The position numbers were made by a program, and so were the translations under genes. From Spirochaetaceae bacterium (GTDB lineage Bacteria > Spirochaetota > Spirochaetia > DSM-27196 > PWMO01): 14,571 nucleotides of DNA. The notes beneath the pieces were generated by a model that saw only the letters and a program-made list of their open reading frames with translations, was not told where the DNA came from and did no database searches. The stretch lies in the NCBI GenBank assembly GCA_003558175.1, contig PWMO01000334.1, forward strand, positions 1 to 14,571, in the 5' to 3' direction. Positions 1 to 8,842 of this stretch are shown piece by piece. Position 1 is the first letter of the stretch. Each line of letters opens with the position of its first letter.

Positions 1-350
1 ACCGTGAGCAGCACGCGGATTTGACCCGGTTTGAGGGTCTGCCGATCGGCTGCGGAGTAGAAGTGGTGGAGCGCTCGGCACTCGAGCAGGCGGTGGCCGA
101 AGGGACGGACCGCTACGACGAGGAACACGTGACCGCTCATCTCTACCGGCACGCAGCCGGCTTTCGCGTGCAACGGATCGATGCACCGCAGCGGTTTTGC
201 TGTCCGGACTGCAGGGTAACCCTTGATACTGAGAACGACTACCAAAGATTGCAGCAACTCTTCGCGGAGCGTTATCGCGGGGAACCGATGGAGGTAGAAG
301 AAATTATCCAATGGTGCAACAGAGAGACCGAGCGGGCGGTGTGCCCATGA
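1..350 (+). CDS. Partial SpsF/NeuA-type cytidylyltransferase (C-terminal end)
   Basis: The gene enters from the left edge. The frame is open from base 3 with no stop upstream, so the TTG at 21 is not a real start; about 116 C-terminal residues are visible. They show the C-terminal pattern of the SpsF/acylneuraminate cytidylyltransferase-like family: a GCGVEVVE segment followed by ALEQA, then EEHVTAHLYRH (compare the family's 'REHVTP' region), and a late VTLDTEND motif (compare 'TVDTPED'). These enzymes activate a sugar acid or sugar with CTP for surface glycan synthesis. The catalytic N-terminal half (GxG nucleotide loop) lies outside the window, so activity and substrate cannot be judged. 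The TGA stop overlaps the ATG of the next gene (ATGA at 347-350), which implies translational coupling with the PseG-like/methyltransferase fusion. Family call is fairly secure; substrate is unknown. Confidence 0.75.
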   Translation, partial: REQHADLTRFEGLPIGCGVEVVERSALEQAVAEGTDRYDEEHVTAHLYRHAAGFRVQRIDAPQRFCCPDCRVTLDTENDYQRLQQLFAERYRGEPMEVEEIIQWCNRETERAVCP

Positions 351-2098
351 GCATACTGCTGGTGCCGGAGACCGGAGTTGGAGCCGGAACGGGACACGTA
401 CGGCGCTGCGTTGGACTCCATAAGCGGTTTGCTCCTGCGGCGGCTGTCTATCTGCCGGCGGGGGCACGTGAAGAACTGGTACGGGCGATCACCGATGAAC
501 TGGGAACGGCAGCCATAGAACGCAGCGAGGACGCTTTCTCGCGCTACAACGTGATCGTATACGACCGTCCGGTGGTACAGCAGCGTGAGCTCGCACCGAT
601 GCTGGACAGCGCGCTGGTGATCGGGCTCGATATCGGCGGCAGCGGACGTGAGTTCGTGAACTACGCCATCGATATCATCCCGCGTTTGCGTGACAACGAG
701 CAGACCAATCTGAGGGACCTCGGATTTCTGGAACTCCCGCGGGCCGTTAGACCTACCGCGGTCACCCAGTACGTCAGGGCGCTGGTTTCGTTTGGGGGTG
801 AAGACCCCGGCAACCTGACGCCAAGGATGGTGCGCGCGCTGTTGAGTAGCGGCGGATTCGAGCGGCAGAACATCACCGTGGTGCGTGGACCACTGGCGCA
901 GTGGCAGATACCCGACGACCTGCGCGTACTCGACCGACCGTCAAATCTCAAGGACGTGCTGAAAGAGTACGACATCGTGTTTACTTCGTTTGGCCTGACT
1001 GCGTTTGAGGCGGCCGCCGCCGGGGCCGCGGTGGTATTGCTCAACCCAACCCGCTATCACGCCCGGTTGGGCCGAAAGGTGGGGTTCCCGGAGGTGGGTG
1101 TCGGCTCGCCGAGACGGCTTCGCCTGCGCAGAGTGCTGCAGGACCCGCTGCTCGCGCGTCGCAGCGCCCAGGTGCTCAACGGCAGCCGCGCGACCGATCT
1201 CGCCCGGACCTTACAGCAGCTCAGTGCGGTTGAGCAATGGGGATGCCCGGTCTGCGGACGGCGCGGCAGTCGTGCGGTGCTTCGTGACGCGCAACGTACG
1301 TTCTACCGTTGTCGCGGCTGCGGCACGGTCTACCGTGACGCGTTCTGCGACAGCGGCATCCGGTACAATGAGCAATACTTCTTTGAAGAGTACCGGAAGC
1401 AGTACGGCAGGACCTACCTCGAAGACTACCAGTCTATCCGCAAAGTCGGTCTGCGGCGTGCACGGCGGATGTTAAAACTGTTGCGTCCACGGGGCACGCG
1501 GAAGGATTCTCGGGGGCATCCACGGCTGCTGGATGTCGGCTGCGCCTACGGCCCGTTCATGGACGCCGCGCGCAGAACCGGGTTTCGTGTCATGGGGGTA
1601 GACGTTGCGTCTGCCGCCGTTGGTTACGTTCGGAACACGCTCCGGTTCCCCGCAATCCAGGGATCGATTGAAGACGCGGCGTTGCGGGGACGCTGGAAGT
1701 CGGCCTCCCTCGACGGAGTAGCCATGTGGTACGTGATCGAACACCTCGATGAGGTGCGCACGGTGCTCCGTTGGGTAGCTGAAGTGGTACGACCCGGTGG
1801 GGTGCTGGCCTTTGCGACACCCAACGGACGCGGCATCTCCGCACTGAAGGACCGGCGCGCCTTTCTGCGCAACAGTCCCGCGGATCACGTTACCGTTTGG
1901 ACACCGCTCGTGACGCGCCGGGTGCTGCGGCGTTTTGGATTTCGCACCGTCCGCACGGTGGTGACCGGTCATCATCCGGAGCGGTTTCCCGGTTGTGCCG
2001 GGGTCCGTCGCCGCAGCCTGCTCTATCGGGTTCTATTGGGGATCAGTCGCATGCTGCGACTGGGAGATACGTTTGAGGTGTACGCACGGCGGGTATGA
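347..2098 (+). CDS. PseG/MurG-like GT-B protein fused to a zinc-ribbon SAM methyltransferase
   Basis: A 583-residue two-part protein. Residues 1 to about 290 look like the GT-B fold of PseG (UDP-sugar hydrolase of pseudaminic acid synthesis) and MurG-like transferases: N-terminal GAGTGHVRRC (His17), SFGGEDPGNLT near 148-158, and FTSFGLTAFEAAAAG near 212-226, the usual nucleotide-diphosphate binding area. A likely zinc ribbon follows (Cys300, 303, 322, 325). Residues from about 330 are a class I SAM methyltransferase: LLDVGCAYG at 394-402 is the SAM loop, GVDVAS carries the acidic residue of strand 2, and MWYVIEHLDE near 460-469 is motif IV. Ribbon-plus-methyltransferase modules are common in O-antigen and sugar clusters. 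The ATG at 347 is chosen because it lies in an ATGA overlap with the preceding stop; starts upstream at 311 run deep into the previous gene. It could be a hydrolase or a glycosyltransferase; the methyl acceptor is unknown. Confidence 0.8.
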   Translation: MSILLVPETGVGAGTGHVRRCVGLHKRFAPAAAVYLPAGAREELVRAITDELGTAAIERSEDAFSRYNVIVYDRPVVQQRELAPMLDSALVIGLDIGGSGREFVNYAIDIIPRLRDNEQTNLRDLGFLELPRAVRPTAVTQYVRALVSFGGEDPGNLTPRMVRALLSSGGFERQNITVVRGPLAQWQIPDDLRVLDRPSNLKDVLKEYDIVFTSFGLTAFEAAAAGAAVVLLNPTRYHARLGRKVGFPEVGVGSPRRLRLRRVLQDPLLARRSAQVLNGSRATDLARTLQQLSAVEQWGCPVCGRRGSRAVLRDAQRTFYRCRGCGTVYRDAFCDSGIRYNEQYFFEEYRKQYGRTYLEDYQSIRKVGLRRARRMLKLLRPRGTRKDSRGHPRLLDVGCAYGPFMDAARRTGFRVMGVDVASAAVGYVRNTLRFPAIQGSIEDAALRGRWKSASLDGVAMWYVIEHLDEVRTVLRWVAEVVRPGGVLAFATPNGRGISALKDRRAFLRNSPADHVTVWTPLVTRRVLRRFGFRTVRTVVTGHHPERFPGCAGVRRRSLLYRVLLGISRMLRLGDTFEVYARRV

Positions 2099-3687
2099 GT
2101 CGCACGGTATTGATTCTCGGCGCCGGCGTGATGCAGCTGCCTGCGCTGCGTCTGGCAAAAGAAGAGGGATGGCACGTCCTGGTAGCCGACGGGAATCCGG
2201 CGGCCGTGGGTCGAGACCTGGCCGATGAGTTCGTCCAGATAGACCTGCGAGACCGCGACGGGCTGTTGCGCTACGCGACGGAACGGCGAGACCGAGCGGG
2301 ACTGGATGGAGTCTTTACCGCGGGCACCGACTTCTCCACCTCCGTTGCGTGGGTTGCGGAACGGCTTGGTCTGCCGGGGATTGATTACCAGACCGCGTTG
2401 TACGCCAGTGACAAGGAGCTGATGCGGCAACGGTTGCTTGCGGCAGGTGTAGCGGTACCACAGTTCACGGTTCTGCGCGCAGTTCCGTCGGCCGCTGAAA
2501 GCGAGGAGATTTGCGGAGAGCTCGGGTCACCCCTTGTAGTCAAGCCGGTTGACAGCATGGGTGCCCGCGGCGTGCGCAGAATTGATCAGTCTGCCGAGTT
2601 GCCGTCGGCAGTTGACGCGGCGTTGAGTCACAGCGGCAGCGGACGCGTTATTGTTGAGCAAATGATCGACGGCCCAGAGTTCAGCGCGGACGCGGTGGTA
2701 TGGCGGGGAGAGATACACTTCTGCGGATTCGCTGATCGCGATATCCGGTTTGCCCCGTGGTTTATCGAAGTAGGGCACACGATGCCGACCGCTGCGTCGA
2801 AGCGTGTTGTGGCCAGTCTGCGGGAACTGTTTGCAGCTGCGATCAAGGCGGTAGGTATTGAGAACGGCGCAGCCAAAGGCGATCTCTTCATTGGAAGCGA
2901 CGGCCCGGTAGTCGGAGAGATAGCCGCGCGTCTGTCCGGCGGCTATATGTCCGGTTGGACGTACCCGTTTGCGAGCGGCGCCGAGCCGACGCGCTCCGCG
3001 CTGCGTGTCGCAGTGGGAGAACCTCCGGGAGACCTGACGCCGAGCAGCCGCCTGGTGAGTTGCGAGCGGGCCGTGATATCCATTCCGGGGCAAGTCGCTG
3101 CAGTGCGAGGGTTTGAGGCAGCTGCAGCGCTCCGTCACGTGCGTCAGTTGTTCCGGCGTTGCAACACGGGAGACCAGGTGGTTTTTCCGCGCAATAACGT
3201 TGAAAAGTGCGGTAACGTAATCACCGCGGCGGCTACGCGGGAGGCTGCAACCGCGGCTGCCGAAGAGGCGCTGCAGCGGATAGAGATTGTACTTGCAGCC
3301 GGAGATCCGGAAACCTTGCGATTCCTGCTGCAAGACGGTTCCGGGCTGTACGGCGACGCAATCGCGGCCTATCCCGCGTTGATGAATACACTGCGATTGA
3401 GGGCGCGAAGAACGGATAGCAGCCGCTGGGCAGCCGTTCCCGAGGTTGGCCCGGCAGGGTTGGAGCGACTGGGGGCGGACGCGGGCGAAGCCGACTGGAA
3501 CGGCAGGACCTTGGCGCAGACGGTACGGCTGCTCGCATCTCGCCTGCGGAAAGAGGACTGGAACCTCCGCGCAGTCGACTTATCTACCCGCTCCTTGATG
3601 TGGCGAGCGGTAGCAAAAGGCGGACTTCAGGGTGGTCGGTTTTTTCTCGATACTATGAAAGAGACACCAGAGCTTTTGAGAGGATAG
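2095..3687 (+). CDS. ATP-grasp carboxylate-amine ligase family protein
   Basis: 530 residues. The N-terminus is a pre-ATP-grasp Rossmann-like domain (VLILGAGVMQLPALRLAKEEGW, here cut to VLILGAG at 5-11) as in PurK and carbamoyl-phosphate synthetase relatives. VVKPVDSMGARGV (148-160) is the ATP-binding lysine strand plus glycine-rich loop, VEQMIDGPEFSAD (187-199) is the large-loop region, and GEIAARLSGGYMSG (274-287) carries the metal-binding acidic residue and catalytic arginine typical of the fold. ATP-grasp enzymes form acyl-phosphates and join a carboxylate to an amine, thiol or similar nucleophile. Residues from about 420 to 530 form a helical-looking tail that I cannot assign. The start is fixed by an ATGA overlap with the preceding stop (2095-2098). 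The cluster suggests amide formation on a sugar or sugar acid, but the substrate is not visible. It is not clearly PurK, PurT, D-Ala-D-Ala ligase or biotin carboxylase. Confidence 0.8.
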   Translation: MSRTVLILGAGVMQLPALRLAKEEGWHVLVADGNPAAVGRDLADEFVQIDLRDRDGLLRYATERRDRAGLDGVFTAGTDFSTSVAWVAERLGLPGIDYQTALYASDKELMRQRLLAAGVAVPQFTVLRAVPSAAESEEICGELGSPLVVKPVDSMGARGVRRIDQSAELPSAVDAALSHSGSGRVIVEQMIDGPEFSADAVVWRGEIHFCGFADRDIRFAPWFIEVGHTMPTAASKRVVASLRELFAAAIKAVGIENGAAKGDLFIGSDGPVVGEIAARLSGGYMSGWTYPFASGAEPTRSALRVAVGEPPGDLTPSSRLVSCERAVISIPGQVAAVRGFEAAAALRHVRQLFRRCNTGDQVVFPRNNVEKCGNVITAAATREAATAAAEEALQRIEIVLAAGDPETLRFLLQDGSGLYGDAIAAYPALMNTLRLRARRTDSSRWAAVPEVGPAGLERLGADAGEADWNGRTLAQTVRLLASRLRKEDWNLRAVDLSTRSLMWRAVAKGGLQGGRFFLDTMKETPELLRG

Positions 3688-3691
3688 CGGG

Positions 3692-4714
3692 TTGATACGG
3701 CGCGTCGGCGCAGCACTTATTTTGCTCGTTCTCATTTCCGCAGCGGGCACCGCCGCGGACGGAGGCTCGGTGTCGGTCGAGGAGATCATCTCAACCAGTG
3801 GCGCTCGCCTGCAATGGGACGCGTCGCGACAGATGGGCACGTTGTGGAAGGGCTACACGAGCATTGGATTCCGTCCGGGACGTGATTATGCCGTTGTCAA
3901 CGGCCACGAGATTGTCGATATCGGGCCGGTTGTCGGCAACAGTGGCAGCATCCGGTTCTCTGAGCACGGGGCGCAAGAGGTGGTGCGGCTGCTGGCACGT
4001 GTCGCTGGTGAGGAGCAGCGGCGCATCGCGGCTATACTGATAGATCCCGGCCACGGTGGGCGTGATCCCGGGACAATCGGACGACACCGGGTCGGAGACG
4101 AACTGTTTGAGATCCAGGAAAAGGACATCGTACTCGATGTCTCGCTTCGCTTGCGACGGCTGCTCGAGGCAACCTACCCTGACCGCCAGATCGTCATGTC
4201 GCGTGAAGACGATACTTACCTGACGCTCGAGCAACGCACCGATCTGGCGAACGCCATAGAGATTGGGAAGCACGAAGCGGTGCTGTTTGTATCGGTGCAC
4301 GCAAATGCGTCGCTGAACAGCCGCGCACGCGGGGTCGAAGTGTGGTATTTGACTCCCGAGTTTCGCAGACCCGATCTGCTCGACCCGGAGCAGGTGGGTG
4401 TGTCGGACCCGGACGTGCTGTCCATCCTGAACACGATGCGCGAGGAGGAGCTCACCATAGAGAGTGTGCTTCTTGCGCGCAATATACTCTCGGGCATTCA
4501 CAGCGAGGTTGGGGACGTATCGCCCAATCGGGGCCTGAAGAAAGAGGCGTGGTACGTGGTTCGCGAAGCAAAAATGCCGTCGGTACTCGTCGAGCTCGGA
4601 TTTGTGACCAACCGTGACGAAGCGCTTCTGCTCGGTGACCCGCGCTACTTGCAAAGCCTGGCCGAGGGTATCTATAATGGCATCGTGACATTCGTCGCCG
4701 GCTTCGAACAGTGA
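3692..4714 (+). CDS. Secreted N-acetylmuramoyl-L-alanine amidase (Amidase_3)
   Basis: 340 residues. A signal peptide is evident: MIRR, hydrophobic core at 5-18, likely cleavage near AGTAA-D (22-23). Residues 25-110 are a small beta-rich stalk-like domain that is not clearly AMIN. The Amidase_3 catalytic domain runs from about 112 to the end. The zinc ligands are His121 in IDPGHGGRDPG, Glu143 in QEKDIVLD and His203 in SVHANA, and the catalytic glutamate is Glu301 in VLVELGFVTN. It cleaves the bond between MurNAc and L-alanine in periplasmic peptidoglycan. A longer segment (about 222-285) between the second zinc histidine and the catalytic Glu could be a regulatory insertion as in AmiC-type enzymes. 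The start is TTG at 3692, supported by GAGAGGA at 3678-3684, which abuts the previous stop. It lies 4 bases after the ATP-grasp gene and two genes upstream of flaA, suggesting wall remodelling linked to periplasmic flagella. Confidence 0.92.
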   Translation: MIRRVGAALILLVLISAAGTAADGGSVSVEEIISTSGARLQWDASRQMGTLWKGYTSIGFRPGRDYAVVNGHEIVDIGPVVGNSGSIRFSEHGAQEVVRLLARVAGEEQRRIAAILIDPGHGGRDPGTIGRHRVGDELFEIQEKDIVLDVSLRLRRLLEATYPDRQIVMSREDDTYLTLEQRTDLANAIEIGKHEAVLFVSVHANASLNSRARGVEVWYLTPEFRRPDLLDPEQVGVSDPDVLSILNTMREEELTIESVLLARNILSGIHSEVGDVSPNRGLKKEAWYVVREAKMPSVLVELGFVTNRDEALLLGDPRYLQSLAEGIYNGIVTFVAGFEQ

Positions 4715-4805: not shown

Positions 4806-5315
4806 GTGGAACTGAATCGCAACAGGCCGCTGTACGTGGCCCTGATACTCCTTGGAACCGCACTTCTGATCTCCGTGACCTGGATGCTGGTTGAGAACCA
4901 CGGCCGGGCGGAACGGGTGCTGTTTTTCCCCGGACATATTGACGTCGAGCTGAGGGGTGAAGCTCGTGTGGTACCGCGCCATCGCGAGCTGGAGCCGGAC
5001 GTCGCGGTGCTGGTAAACGAGATTCTGCTCGGACCGGTGGATCTTGCCAAGTCACGGATTCTGCCCATGGAAGCTGAAGTTCGCAGTCTGATGGTGAGAG
5101 ATCGCACCGTTTACCTCGACTTCGCTCCAAATATACTGTTTCTCCAGGAACGCCTCGGTATCAGCCTTGATGAAGCGTTCGATGCGGTCCGGAGAACCGT
5201 GCTGTACAATTTTCGCGGTATCAGGCGGGTGGTAATCACGGTAAACGGACAGCTTCCGAACCAACCTCATTTTGAGGTCAAAAATACGTTGACAAACAAG
5301 TTAGCTTCCATATAA
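4806..5315 (+). CDS. Membrane-anchored GerMN-domain protein
   Basis: 169 residues from a GTG at 4806. That start follows a purine-rich GAGGAAAGAG at 4791-4800 and puts a transmembrane anchor directly at the N-terminus (residues 9-29, PLYVALILLGTALLISVTWM). The frame opens at 4728 (GTG), but I see no ribosome site there and the extra 26 residues look uncharacteristic. Residues 37-150 fit the GerMN fold: VLFFPGHIDVELRGEARVVP opens the domain, LVNEILLGPVD (69-79) is the characteristic 'L..GP' element, and VRDRTVYLDFAPN (97-109) matches the late 'v.dg.ayvdls' strand. GerMN domains occur on spore and cell-wall proteins, often beside amidases, and are thought to bind wall or protein partners extracytoplasmically. 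Pairing with the amidase directly upstream of flaA is, from memory, also seen in Treponema. Its stop codon lies inside the flaA -10 box. Molecular function unknown. Confidence 0.75.
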   Translation: MELNRNRPLYVALILLGTALLISVTWMLVENHGRAERVLFFPGHIDVELRGEARVVPRHRELEPDVAVLVNEILLGPVDLAKSRILPMEAEVRSLMVRDRTVYLDFAPNILFLQERLGISLDEAFDAVRRTVLYNFRGIRRVVITVNGQLPNQPHFEVKNTLTNKLASI

Positions 5316-5370: not shown

Positions 5371-6372
5371 ATGAGAAGGCTTTTCATTCTTGTTGTCAGC
5401 CTGCTGGTATTGGTGAGTTTCGCTGCGGTGGCTGAGCAAGCAGTTTTAATCGATTTCTCTCAGCTGATCGCGGATTGGCCGGCAGACAATCCCGTCAACA
5501 ACGAAGCAACGATCTTCGACTACAGCGAGCAGGCCGGTACCGGTTTCTCCGAAGAAGAACGCTTGATGATGCGTACCTCGTTGGCCATCGATAACTGGGA
5601 AGTGCTTCTGGCACCGTCGTCACGCTATGTGCGGCTGCAGGCTGAGAGCATGGCCCGCCAGGCGTTTGTCCGTGAAGGCGCAACCCGCTTTGCCGGTGAA
5701 GGCGTGCTCGGCGTTCGGGTGAGCTTCCCAACGGGGCGCTTCAACTCGTGGGCACTGGTTCAGCCCCCGTTTGAAATCCCGGCGTATGAAGACGTCACCG
5801 TAATTGAGGGAGACGGTACCATCTCCGTTCCACAGGACGAAGAAGGACGGGGGCGGAAGTTCGACAACTTTGGTGTCGTAAAGAACATCGGTACCTTGCG
5901 GTCGCTCTCCATGAACGTGCACGGCCTGAACTTCCCGCACGGAATCAGCGTAATCCTGCAGGATGAGAACTTCCGGGAACAGGAGATCTTTCTGGGCTAT
6001 CTGAACTTCGACGGCTGGCGGACGCTCGAGTGGCGCAATCCTAACTATGTCACCGACGTACGGCAGCGTGATCTCCGCCCGGCGCCGCTGTATCCCAATC
6101 TGGCTCCGATGCGCAAGCTGGTCGGCATACGCATCTACCGCGATGCCGAGATGACCGGCGGAGATTTCATCACGTACATCAAAGACATCAACGTCACCTT
6201 TGACCGCGCCGTGCTCGAGCTTGAGCGCGACATAGATGACGAAGCGGTCTGGGGTATTCTGCAGCAGCGTGAAGCCGCGCGGCGCCGCGCCGAGATGCAG
6301 CGTGTCGGTAACGTGCAAGTTCTGCGCTACCTCGAACAGCAGCGAATGTTTGAGAATGAGAACGACCTCTAA
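5371..6372 (+). CDS. flaA: Flagellar filament outer layer (sheath) protein FlaA
   Basis: 333 residues, normal for spirochaete FlaA (about 320-350). Signal peptide MRRLFILVVSLLVLVSFAAVA with cleavage after Ala21 (AVA-EQ), consistent with export to the periplasm where spirochaete flagella rotate. Family landmarks: VLIDFSQL near the mature N-terminus, RFAGEGVLGVRVSFP (106-120), NSWALVQPPFEIPAYE (125-140), FGVVKNIGTLRS (168-179), FPHGISVILQDEN (188-200), LGYLNFDGWRTLEWRNPNY (208-226) and GGDFITYIKDINVTFDRAVL (263-282). FlaA coats the FlaB core of the filament and affects its shape and stiffness. The C-terminus from about 296 is a charged, Arg/Glu/Gln-rich helix (QQREAARRRAEMQ), perhaps a coiled coil. 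The gene has its own sigma-70 promoter and a strong terminator, so it can be expressed apart from its upstream neighbours. Confidence 0.93.
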   Translation: MRRLFILVVSLLVLVSFAAVAEQAVLIDFSQLIADWPADNPVNNEATIFDYSEQAGTGFSEEERLMMRTSLAIDNWEVLLAPSSRYVRLQAESMARQAFVREGATRFAGEGVLGVRVSFPTGRFNSWALVQPPFEIPAYEDVTVIEGDGTISVPQDEEGRGRKFDNFGVVKNIGTLRSLSMNVHGLNFPHGISVILQDENFREQEIFLGYLNFDGWRTLEWRNPNYVTDVRQRDLRPAPLYPNLAPMRKLVGIRIYRDAEMTGGDFITYIKDINVTFDRAVLELERDIDDEAVWGILQQREAARRRAEMQRVGNVQVLRYLEQQRMFENENDL

Positions 6373-6702: not shown

Positions 6703-7614
6703 TCAGGAGTGCGGTGGAGAAACCGCCCAGGTGAACCCGGTTGTGGCACGGAAGAGAAAGTTACCCCCGAGATCGTCTCCTAACAGCTCGTTGCGACCAA
6801 AGGCGTAAAGCGATGCGTCCAGTCCGCCGTAAACCGAGAAACCGGGCCTGAGGTCCACGGTAACTCCCGCGGAAGATACGATAGCACCGAACGCGTGGGT
6901 AAGCCCCGCAGCCTGAAAGAGACGTTCGTAGTCGTGGAAGCCGAAGGCGAGATCTACCCGATATGGCACGTTCTTCTGAAACACGTGCGCACGGACTTCG
7001 TAGGCGCGGAACCGGTCCGCGATGAGGTCGGCATCGGTCAGTTCGTCATAGCGAAAGTCACCGGTGTAGAGCGAAAGCACCACGTTCGGCAGGTAGATGC
7101 CAAGCTCGTACTCTTCCGTCGACTGACGGTAGTCGCCGACGTCTTCCAGTGAATGGTGCAACGGGGCGCGCGCCGCGAGGGAGACAAATCCGAACGTTCC
7201 AAAATTGACCGTCAGATCCGCCAACACACCCGGGCGTGCGAGAAACGGCTTGTCCTGATTGTTGAGAAGACCGACTGTCGGGCCGACACCCAGGGCGATC
7301 CAGTCTGCGTGATGCGACAGAAGGAGATCGGCGCTGTTGCCAAGAAGGTGGTGTCGTGCCAGCTCGACCTGCAGTTCAATCCTGTCGCGCAGCGGATGCC
7401 GTACGCCGAGACTGAATCCTCCGGTATAGGTGGAAGTGGGCAACCCTTCGTCGGTGGCTTCGCGGTTGCGACTGAAGCCGAGGTTGCCAATATCGAACTC
7501 GGCGTAGACTTCGGTGGCTGCGAAGGCGTCGACCGAAAGCAGAAGCAGGGCGGAGACAACGAGAATTGAACACCACACTCGTTGACGCACGTTGCGTGAC
7601 CGTGGTAACTGCAT
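6703..7614 (-). CDS. Putative outer-membrane beta-barrel protein (303 aa), unrecognised
   Basis: 303 residues from the ATG whose first base is 7614. GGAG (minus strand) lies 7 bases upstream, and the stop of the preceding minus-strand gene ends one base before it, so the pair is an operon with coupled translation. The signal peptide has a basic start (MQLPRSRNVRQR), hydrophobic core ILVVSALLLLSV and cleavage near AFA-A (about residue 32). The mature part shows alternating polar and hydrophobic residues with frequent Gly, Phe, Tyr and short turns (for example GGFSLGVRHPLRDRIELQVE and FSVYGGLDASLYAFG), as in beta-barrels. The extreme C-terminus (FTWAVSPPHS) is not a classical terminal aromatic strand. 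I do not recognise a family. It is probably a paralogue or partner of the upstream barrel; a porin-like or structural role is a guess. Confidence 0.65.
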   Translation of the reverse strand: MQLPRSRNVRQRVWCSILVVSALLLLSVDAFAATEVYAEFDIGNLGFSRNREATDEGLPTSTYTGGFSLGVRHPLRDRIELQVELARHHLLGNSADLLLSHHADWIALGVGPTVGLLNNQDKPFLARPGVLADLTVNFGTFGFVSLAARAPLHHSLEDVGDYRQSTEEYELGIYLPNVVLSLYTGDFRYDELTDADLIADRFRAYEVRAHVFQKNVPYRVDLAFGFHDYERLFQAAGLTHAFGAIVSSAGVTVDLRPGFSVYGGLDASLYAFGRNELLGDDLGGNFLFRATTGFTWAVSPPHS

Positions 7615-7615
7615 G

Positions 7616-8737
7616 TTAGAACTCCGTGCGAATTCCCAGCAGAGCTTCAAAGGACTCGAGCTGGTCGAAAGGATGAATTCTGGTGCGCAGGGCGAGATCC
7701 CAGACCGTTCCGGTGGCCGTCAGGCGCAGGAACGGCGTCACCGAGAGCTGCAGTTCTCTGTCCGCGTCCGGGTCGAGATGTACGCCGCCGTCGATGCCAC
7801 CGTAGAAACCCTCCTGCAGTGGGTTGCCGAAGAGCAGTTTAGCGTGCAGGTCCGTTCCTCCCTCGGCATCCGTCGGCTGCTGATCGTAGTAGCGCGGCTG
7901 CCAGAAGAGAGTGAAGAACAGCCCAAAAGACTCGAGTCGGAGCCTGGGCTCGACAAGGATATAGAGGCTGTCAAAGTCTATACTGTCGGAAGAATCCCAG
8001 GGAGCCCAGTAGGGCAGGCCGATCTGGGCAAAGAACTCGCCCCCGGTTCCGGTATCGAGAAACAGCAGCGCCCCCGCCCGATAAACGCCGGCCTCCGCCT
8101 CGGGAAAGGTAGCGCCGGCAAAAGCCTCGAGCTTTATCTGTGGCAAATTGAACATCGCGCGTGCGTCGCCTGAGAAGGTTCCCGGGTCGAGCCGTTCGTC
8201 CTGGTATAAGTAGAGGTCAAAGTTCCAACGATCGGAGCCGGCCGGAAACTGAAGCTGTAAACCGGTGCCGAGCACTCCGAAGATGCCGTTGTACGCGGTA
8301 GACTGCGGAAACTGCTGCACGCCGTAGAAGCGGCTGTCGAACGGCCGCGTGCCGAAGCGGCGCTCGAGCTCCGTTCCTGAAGCGAAGCGATCAATCGACC
8401 CGGTGAAATAGATAAGATTGAGCGGCCGCGAAAAGAGTTCACGCGTAATGGCGCGCGCATAGCGGAATTGCAGTACCCGGTCCTCCAGGGGTGCGGCGCT
8501 GTCCTCCACGGCCTGGTTCAGGATGCGAAAGCCGAGGTCGGCGCCAAACTTGTACCCCCCTTCAAACGCCAACTCGAAGTCGAGCGAGGTGGAGAGCCGT
8601 GGGCTGCCGTCCTCAAGAAACCCACGGGTAAACAGCTCGAGCTTGGGAGCGCGAACGTCTACCGCCTGCAGCGGCACGGTTCCCGGCGCTGCAAGCAGCA
8701 AAACCAGCGATAGTAGAATTGCGCGGAACCAGTTCAC
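7616..8737 (-). CDS. Putative outer-membrane beta-barrel protein (373 aa), unrecognised
   Basis: 373 residues from a GTG whose first base is 8737. That start is chosen because AGGAGGGG (minus strand, 8751-8744) sits just upstream and the product then begins with a textbook signal peptide (MNWFRAILLSLVLLLAAPGTVPLQA, quoted here in part: MNWFRAILLSLVLLL) with cleavage near LQA-V at residue 25. The frame opens further upstream at 8824, but that adds 29 hydrophilic residues before the signal. The mature protein is rich in amphipathic strands with Tyr, Phe, Trp and Asp-rich turns and ends LLGIRTEF; a C-terminal phenylalanine is typical of proteins inserted by BamA. It is first gene of a two-gene operon, one base ahead of the next, and its promoter region is shared divergently with cheA. 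No family recognised; a spirochaete outer-membrane porin-like protein is the most likely reading. Confidence 0.7.
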   Translation of the reverse strand: MNWFRAILLSLVLLLAAPGTVPLQAVDVRAPKLELFTRGFLEDGSPRLSTSLDFELAFEGGYKFGADLGFRILNQAVEDSAAPLEDRVLQFRYARAITRELFSRPLNLIYFTGSIDRFASGTELERRFGTRPFDSRFYGVQQFPQSTAYNGIFGVLGTGLQLQFPAGSDRWNFDLYLYQDERLDPGTFSGDARAMFNLPQIKLEAFAGATFPEAEAGVYRAGALLFLDTGTGGEFFAQIGLPYWAPWDSSDSIDFDSLYILVEPRLRLESFGLFFTLFWQPRYYDQQPTDAEGGTDLHAKLLFGNPLQEGFYGGIDGGVHLDPDADRELQLSVTPFLRLTATGTVWDLALRTRIHPFDQLESFEALLGIRTEF

Positions 8738-8743
8738 TCGACG

Positions 8744-8751
8744 CCCCTCCT
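8744..8751 (-). promoter_or_regulatory. Strong Shine-Dalgarno site deciding the GTG start at 8737
   Basis: The minus strand reads AGGAGGGG here, with 6 bases to the GTG start (8 counted from AGGAGG). It is among the best ribosome sites in the window and makes the GTG at 8737 preferable to starts further upstream. Confidence 0.75.
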
Positions 8752-8814
8752 GTCGGTCTTTACCCGTAGGCGTTGTAGATTGACTTTGCGTTTTTTGATC
8801 CACTCCTACTGGTA

Positions 8815-8842
8815 CTATCGGCATCGCAGGCCTGTCAACATA
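8815..8842 (-). promoter_or_regulatory. Candidate sigma-28 promoter for the barrel operon
   Basis: Minus strand: TATGTTGA (8842-8835), 12 bases, then GCCGATAG (8822-8815). Compared with the enterobacterial sigma-28 consensus TAAAGTTT-N11-GCCGATAA, the -10 matches 7 of 8 and the -35 about 5 of 8. A TTGACA (8838-8833) overlaps but has no good sigma-70 -10 at normal spacing. The implied leader to the GTG at 8737 is about 70 bases. Confidence 0.4.

Follow-up and report, generated by a model that had tools for sequence, protein, structure and literature searches.

In the spirochaete Treponema denticola the FlaB flagellins carry a glycan of 450.2 Da, and flagellin glycosylation is essential for filament assembly and motility, according to PMC9481697. 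For Leptospira, a 2026 cryo-electron microscopy study locates what may be glycans between FlaB1 and the sheath (PMC13144727), and PMC3438082 reports nonulosonate gene clusters and their expression, the word Treponema being absent from its main text. In the open-licence literature searched, mostly as listings and passages, no paper was seen to name the genes behind the glycan of treponemal flagellins, and nothing helped on SpsF/TP0562. Glycosylation of treponeme flagellins has reportedly been described since 1998. Here we analyse a three-gene block at the left end of a 14,571-bp stretch of DNA from a Spirochaetaceae bacterium (contig PWMO01000334.1, assembly GCA_003558175.1), called the window below. 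The genes encode a cytidylyltransferase, a fusion of a PseG-like domain to a methyltransferase, and an ATP-grasp ligase, and they lie upstream of flaA.

We consider it highly likely, from the sequences, that the block belongs to a flagellin nonulosonate module. It is also likely, at a slightly lower level of confidence, that the block contributes to a spirochaete pathway for a cytidine monophosphate (CMP)-activated nonulosonic acid, most likely of the pseudaminic type, which would serve O-glycosylation of the FlaB flagellins. This assignment is supported by gene content, synteny, co-occurrence with flagellin and with NeuB, and conserved acceptor serines. The link to flagellin comes from comparison between genomes, and all substrates and steps are deduced from predicted proteins. 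An earlier note, made from the letters of the window, had proposed a flagellar or surface glycan; comparative tests supported the flagellar version, through synteny with flaA, co-occurrence with flagellin, and the finding of NeuB and PseB/C-like genes.

The PseB-C-H-G-I-F flagellin pathway of Campylobacter and Helicobacter resembles the spirochaete set in having homologues of the dehydratase, the aminotransferase, the PseG-like enzyme, the NeuB/PseI synthase (in congeners) and the CMP transferase, and in the likely targets, Ser/Thr residues of flagellin. The spirochaete set differs in that its proteins score below the equivalog cut-offs, PseG is fused to a methyltransferase (and in Treponema also to the CMP transferase), an ATP-grasp amide ligase is present, the genes are spread over at least three loci and a spiroSPASM protein accompanies them. 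With the T. denticola FlaB glycan the lineage studied here is compared through its genes. The acceptor motifs are conserved in the one own flagellin examined. For the structure assumed for the T. denticola glycan, a pseudaminic acid core bearing a single acetyl and an amide-linked 2-methoxy-4,5,6-trihydroxyhexanoyl group, the computed mass is 450.185 Da per residue, against the reported 450.2 Da. In the Bacillus SpsF/SpsG pathway for spore-coat legionaminic acid a cytidylyltransferase likewise adjoins a PseG/SpsG-like protein, but the target is a surface coat and no ATP-grasp or methyltransferase fusion is known to us there. The L-amino acid ligase BL00235 (PDB 3vot), the closest solved ligase to the third gene, makes dipeptides in Bacillus; unlike it, the window protein has about 125 additional C-terminal residues and another neighbourhood.

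The window is the entire contig G000:C514 of a 2.77 Mb assembly (550 contigs, 76.6% complete). Gene 1 (3 to 350, plus strand, as are the other genes of the block) is an open reading frame open at the contig edge, which encodes the C-terminal 115 residues of a cytidylyltransferase of the CTP_transf_3 family, the remainder lying off the contig. The fragment alone matched no family; it fell into a BLAST cluster of 15 proteins with longer relatives, and a relative from the same genus (L052:8223-8909) matched CTP_transf_3 (PF02348) with E 5.6e-20, so that the predicted CMP-sugar synthetase step is assigned through the congener. Among curated NCBIfam families, the cytidylyltransferase gave spiroSPASM and KdsB-like matches far below cut-off. 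Gene 2 (347 to 2098) has its likely start at 347, with an alternative in-frame ATG at 311, and encodes a PseG-like domain (353 to 1228), zinc-ribbon cysteines (1244 to 1321) and a class I S-adenosylmethionine (SAM)-dependent methyltransferase domain (1370 to 2095). Gene 3 (2095 to 3687) encodes a 530-residue ATP-grasp carboxylate-amine ligase of the L-amino-acid-ligase type. The ATGA stop/start overlaps between genes 1 and 2 (347 to 350) and genes 2 and 3 (2095 to 2098), and the 4-base gap between the stop of gene 3 at 3687 and the TTG start of an amidase gene at 3692, which leads into the amidase-GerMN-flaA region, can be read directly in the sequence, as the earlier note had stated. The arrangement is far beyond chance, the same order recurring across the taxonomic order and in Treponema.

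Co-occurrence with flagellin was surveyed in a panel of 80 genomes, hand-picked after the spiroSPASM survey to include families without spiroSPASM and enriched in negatives; seven of the 87 genomes planned (G094, G417, G305, G426, G097, G046 and G245) were left out before any counting. The thresholds were E<=0.001 for flagellin, E<1e-40 for NeuB, E<=1e-30 for the ATP-grasp ligase and E<=1e-10 for the PseG-methyltransferase. We infer the identities of the genomes referred to as T. pallidum-, Borrelia-, Sphaerochaeta-, Brachyspira- or Leptospira-like. Flagellin_N was present in 68 genomes. The ATP-grasp ligase was found in 62 of the 80, namely in 62 of the 68 with flagellin and none of the 12 without, and the PseG-methyltransferase in 63 (49 of them with E<1e-80), again in none of the 12, a distribution that fits a role in flagella. 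In other classes, the best PseG-methyltransferase match covered the methyltransferase half only in 12 of 17 genomes. Strong NeuB matches occurred in 62/68 genomes with flagellin and 1/12 without. The Fisher values for co-occurrence with flagellin (3e-10 and 1e-8) ignore kinship and panel choice. At E<=1e-30, four of the 12 flagellin-less genomes had a PseC-family match and four a PF02719 match. Flagellated relatives of the flagellin-less genomes, G339 in family f15 and G288 and G349 in f18, keep the module.

Two groups of genomes were informative. In five Borrelia-like genomes flagellin is present, and spiroSPASM, NeuB, PseG-methyltransferase, ATP-grasp, PseB-like and PseC-like genes are absent at the thresholds used. 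The T. pallidum-like genome G101, a single contig of 1,139,633 bp, keeps spiroSPASM, the ATP-grasp ligase, NeuB, the PseB/C pair, a GT-A-like gene called GTx, and a fused cytidylyltransferase-PseG-methyltransferase. We take G101 to be T. pallidum, which is not known to have lipopolysaccharide (LPS).

The flagellins showed a corresponding difference. Using the FlaB acceptor motifs reported in PMC7431986, which mentions interrogans FlaB4 and B. burgdorferi FlaB, we aligned 39 flagellins; one of 40 loci (G289) was left out because the motif yielded no sequence. Among 32 flagellins from ATP-grasp-bearing genomes, serine was present at site 1 in 29 and at site 2 in 30, and all 32 had at least one site. 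All five Borrelia-like flagellins have Glu and Asp at the acceptor sites, both serines being missing. The own FlaB examined, one of four matches, contains VEISQL and DRIAS with both serines. Such conserved acceptor serines would agree with nonulosonate glycosylation of the flagellins. FlaA itself is probably not a target, since a 1998 paper reportedly found flagellins but not sheath proteins glycosylated.

The window ends at a contig edge, and direct extension to the left, which the earlier note had advised, was therefore impossible; the left side was taken from relatives, in which the cluster proved to be conserved and larger than three genes. In loci of the order, picked for long contigs, xseA is divergent from a run of spiroSPASM, GTx, cytidylyltransferase, PseG-methyltransferase, ATP-grasp ligase, amidase, GerMN and FlaA; cheA was found in 11 of the 21 loci. 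On contig C433 of the own genome (G000), xseA and spiroSPASM are followed by the start of GTx, which runs off the contig end. C433 is probably the left neighbour of the window contig, the two having no sequence overlap. The genes scanned between xseA and flaA showed no LPS, capsule or teichoic signature, which agrees with the flagellar reading, and a plain LPS or capsule cluster was dropped as a candidate.

The position of FlaA was counted in loci with at least 4.5 kb past the ATP-grasp gene. FlaA lay 3' of that gene, on the same strand and within 4 kb, in 14/14 order loci (window counted), in 45/45 qualifying named loci, and in three of the four that qualified among twelve further loci of the class. 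The named loci were the best 80 of 429 confirmed matches, the first query being a fused Treponema protein, which favours fused proteins. All of these 80 were from spirochaetes, including Treponema vincentii, T. bryantii, T. lecithinolyticum and T. saccharophilum, and in all 80 the cytidylyltransferase and the PseG-methyltransferase matched one open reading frame, as the fused query favours. T. denticola was not among the best 80 of 429, and G064, possibly of the T. denticola group (an identity assigned by us), had no FlaA within 19.5 kb around the ATP-grasp gene. Therefore the transcript reported to join flaA to four open reading frames lying upstream of it (PMC9481697, section 7) cannot be linked to the ligase.

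GTx was present in 19/21 order loci and in 76 of the best 80 of the 429 named matches; the window and L057 begin beyond it. Its GT-A-like label comes from a sub-threshold Glycos_transf_2 match (16.9 vs 23.3 bits) and motif reading, and a PDB sequence search with it gave 0 matches. GTx was considered as the flagellin transferase and dropped, being strongly kept in the five Borrelia-like genomes and in three flagellin-less genomes of one genus. It stands beside the amidase and GerMN in the Borrelia-like and flagellin-less loci read. GTx is a separable neighbour and does not belong to the co-varying set. The Borrelia-like locus L217 (G280) reads GTx, amidase, GerMN-like (35 bits), FlaA, CheA and CheW/R, with the nonulosonate genes missing. 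GTx, amidase and GerMN survive the loss of the nonulosonate genes there and also the loss of flagellin (G281, L218); they possibly form a module of their own, a conserved spirochaete envelope unit.

The spiroSPASM family (TIGR04321, NCBIfam), the upstream partner of the block in relatives and on C433, matched in 319 of 392 genomes of the phylum at E<=0.001, 290 of them over cut-off; of 14 control genomes ten matched weakly and none over cut-off. The CxxxCxxC motif was absent from the own protein (L265:213-1784) and from 15/15 order members tested, and radical SAM chemistry in this lineage was dropped for want of it. In an alignment of 26 spiroSPASM sequences, four cysteines of the SPASM region were invariant (26/26) and C-x3-C-x2-C was kept only in L115, L116, L117 and L119. 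Judged by these residues, radical SAM chemistry seems to be gone from a large part of the family. The name 'spiro-SPASM' was not mentioned in the open-licence literature searched.

Profile searches of the three proteins, also advised earlier, identified the methyltransferase and both domains of the ligase, but not gene 1 alone, and PseG matched below cut-off. Gene 2 matched Methyltransf_23 (PF13489) with 64.8 bits (cut-off 27), and with its SAM-binding fold it belongs to the class I SAM methyltransferases. The full protein scored 33.6 bits against PseG and the PseG-like domain 35.4 bits against TIGR03590, below the cut-off of 153.55; six of seven alignment members matched. The top PDB profile match of this domain was the UDP-sugar hydrolase 3hbm (PseG; UDP, uridine diphosphate), with E 0.0068 and an aligned GxGH motif (H15 of the translated domain). 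GxGH was invariant in 37/37 sequences, as were the zinc-ribbon residues C298, C301 and C320; in the order members L062, L066 and L070 the ribbon is gone. Searched by itself against PDB sequences, the PseG-like domain of the window gave 0 matches, and a full-length gene-2 profile retrieved methyltransferase-type chains only (E<=0.001). For the two-domain AlphaFold model (mean predicted local distance difference test score 90.5), the matches listed by Foldseek and VIA-align were all methyltransferase-type folds, so the assignment of the PseG-like half comes from sequence and not from fold. The weak PseG score leaves room for a different function of this half, that of a GT-B glycosyltransferase moving the CMP-sugar onto flagellin. 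The relatives P0105 and P0112 are named for spore coat polysaccharide biosynthesis, P0112 with the addition 'predicted glycosyltransfe', and no other transferase turned up. The match to 3hbm speaks for a hydrolase, but GT-B transferases share a similar glycine-His motif, and the aligned GxGH does not decide. We regard the transferase function as improbable.

In gene 3, ATP-grasp_4 and LAL_C2 were both above their cut-offs, and these domains and the fold matches place the protein in the ATP-grasp L-amino-acid-ligase family. That its closest solved relative ligates L-amino acids, and that the nearest folds of the methyltransferase include nucleotide-sugar 3-C-methyltransferases (among the matches listed), agrees with a variant of the flagellin nonulosonate pathway. 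In this variant an amino acid would be what the ligase couples, or the ligase would act on the finished sugar, and the methyltransferase would hit a sugar carbon or ring oxygen, so that the product would not be that of T. denticola. A similar fold, however, leaves the substrate undecided, and the T. denticola glycan carries just a single extended N-acyl and a single O-methyl group, with a mass that fits; this variant seems to us somewhat unlikely. Besides mass, gene fusions speak for the proposed chemistry. The methyltransferase is joined to the ATP-grasp ligase in a single recorded protein, P0159, possibly an artefact of gene prediction, and two genomes from other classes (L219, L220) have the ligase fused to an FMN_dh-family domain. 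Enzymes of the FMN_dh type often act on 2-hydroxy acids, the family having other members too, and those that do would suit the ATP-grasp ligase. The T. pallidum-like genome has an FMN_dh gene (L111:15341-16222) two genes past the PseG-methyltransferase.

The search for neuB and pseB/C genes, a further check suggested at the outset, succeeded for the order and for the PseB/C-like pair of the own genome, but yielded no strong NeuB in the own assembly. A NeuB-family synthase (PF03102) reached E<1e-40 in 39 of the 46 genomes of the order, and stood directly after serS in six of eight loci read; the congeners G002-G006 have a strong PF03102 match. The one such protein scanned, from G044, has NeuB and SAF domains and falls below the NeuB and PseI equivalog cut-offs. 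A second, stronger NeuB (E 1e-74 to 1e-101) was seen in eight order genomes (G004:C35, G008:C30, G011:C241, G013:C10, G026:C347, G027:C174, G039:C104 and G044:C1:3393002), with an adjoining aminotransferase-like gene in G004 and G044; these genes probably belong to separate surface-sugar clusters. PseB- and PseC-like genes are adjacent on the own contig G000:C294. The dehydratase exceeds the cut-off of PF02719 (333 bits) and reaches 150.1 of 407.75 bits for the PseB equivalog, and the aminotransferase has PseC as its best NCBIfam match (331 of 423.5 bits). Four steps are thus represented by homologues in the own genome: those of the dehydratase, the aminotransferase, the PseG-like enzyme and the CMP transferase. 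PseC-family matches occurred in 66/80 panel genomes at E<=1e-30, only two over cut-off, and the best PseB-like and PseC-like matches lay within 400 bp of each other in 40 of 62 genomes compared, a count that left out five flagellin-less genomes with matches (G267, G270, G283, G399 and G421). No PseH-type acetyltransferase was found among the proteins scanned; no genome-wide search was made.

In nine of nine loci read (L266, the own C294, and L267-L274) a gene for a xanthine-dehydrogenase-like large subunit comes after the PseB/PseC-like pair, and in the two that were scanned [2Fe-2S] and flavin adenine dinucleotide subunits come next. The large subunit of the T. pallidum-like genome shows only MoCoBD_1 and a weak Ald_Xan_dh_C match, and its use of molybdenum is doubtful. 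A LoaP/NusG-like antiterminator lies 5' of the pair in the own genome.

In the pathway that we propose, the PseB/PglF-like dehydratase and the PseC-like aminotransferase of C294 would start and complete a UDP-4-amino sugar. The ATP-grasp ligase would then form an amide between the sugar amine and a small acid, replacing the PseH-type acetyl, the methyltransferase half of gene 2 would methylate the product, and the PseG-like half would free the sugar from UDP. Condensation with phosphoenolpyruvate by the NeuB-family synthase, encoded elsewhere, may be followed by formation of the CMP-sugar by the cytidylyltransferase, and a candidate transferase would place the sugar on Ser/Thr of FlaB. The T. 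denticola FlaB glycan, as reportedly described by Kurniyati et al. 2017, has one extended N-acyl and one O-methyl group. For the ATP-grasp enzyme as installer of the N-acyl, which the earlier note had put forward, we see even chances, and the methyltransferase as installer of the O-methyl is just as evenly balanced; the two roles would fit the reported 450.2-Da mass.

Several observations weigh against the proposed pathway. The panel was chosen after the spiroSPASM results, so its p values cannot be taken as unbiased. A fair count would go by separate losses of flagellin, of which there are about three (in one genus of f15, in family f17 and in one genus of f18), and loss of the flagellum often accompanies genome reduction. 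PseB, PseC and PseG scores lie below equivalog cut-offs, and the broad families also occur in the 14 control genomes (NeuB in 9, PseC in 10 with two over cut-off, PF02719 in 7); presence alone therefore proves little, and the fit with flagellin and the ATP-grasp ligase carries the weight. The own genome has no strong NeuB, only a weak 641-residue relative, which at 77% completeness of the assembly is not evidence of absence. No flagellin transferase turned up, and no search for a Maf-type transferase was made. The comparison by mass depends on the structure assumed for the T. denticola glycan. G370 has flagellin, NeuB and the module and no PseB/C match, and G361 has the PseG-methyltransferase and the ligase and no clear spiroSPASM or GTx match. 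G357 has flagellin, a strong NeuB and the PseB/C pair and lacks the ATP-grasp ligase, GTx and a full PseG-methyltransferase; of its two flagellins, both keep the serine of site 1 and one keeps that of site 2. In flagellin-less G270 a strong NeuB is present and shares its contig with PseC-like and PF02719 genes, an arrangement that resembles another kind of sugar cluster.

G357, with its acceptor serines and no ligase gene, and G270, with its NeuB and other sugar genes, would also suit a nonulosonate made for another envelope polymer (an outer-membrane glycolipid, capsule or periplasmic glycan), the adjacency to flaA being historical only. The amidase, GerMN and GT-A-like neighbours are of envelope type and survive without flagellin in genus g27. 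Yet the ATP-grasp and PseG-methyltransferase genes are absent from 12/12 flagellin-less genomes, though the GT-A-like match stays in 10/12 (three of these strong, with E<=1e-88, and seven weak, with E 1e-27 to 1e-36); they are retained in the T. pallidum-like genome, of a species not known to have LPS; and the Borrelia-like genomes, which lack the module, are without the acceptor serines. We regard another polymer as quite improbable, more so than the transferase function discussed above.

The neighbours of the block in the window, all on the plus strand, are an N-acetylmuramoyl-L-alanine amidase (3692 to 4714; Amidase_3, E 9.6e-48), a GerMN-domain (Germane) protein (4806 to 5315; PF10646, E 1.9e-8) and flaA, encoding the flagellar filament sheath protein (5371 to 6372, ATG at 5371; PF04620, E 2.2e-70), each a conserved neighbour. 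Two minus-strand open reading frames, cheA, a CheW/CheR-like gene and further open reading frames lie 3' of flaA. The two minus-strand frames (6703-8824, between flaA and cheA) overlap, and one has a sub-threshold beta-barrel match; relatives of each occur in 8/21 order loci, window counted.

Tentatively, and with somewhat less than even confidence, we suggest that an ancient route to a nonulosonate is common to flagellated spirochaetes. In it the sugar amine would receive a methylated polyhydroxy acyl chain from an ATP-grasp amide ligase instead of an acetyl from a PseH-type enzyme, the methyltransferase is fused to the PseG-like step, a SPASM/nucleotidyltransferase protein is a partner and linked redox enzymes would supply the acid; Borrelia-type lineages would have lost both the pathway and the acceptor serines. 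The acid suppliers would be the FMN_dh-family domain that is joined to the ligase in some other classes and the xanthine-dehydrogenase-like complex beside the PseB/C pair. If true, this would provide a short, testable gene list for the sugar coat already seen on spirochaete flagella, it would explain why Borrelia flagellins are without the acceptor serines, and amide ligation would join the known ways of modifying bacterial sialic-acid-like sugars.

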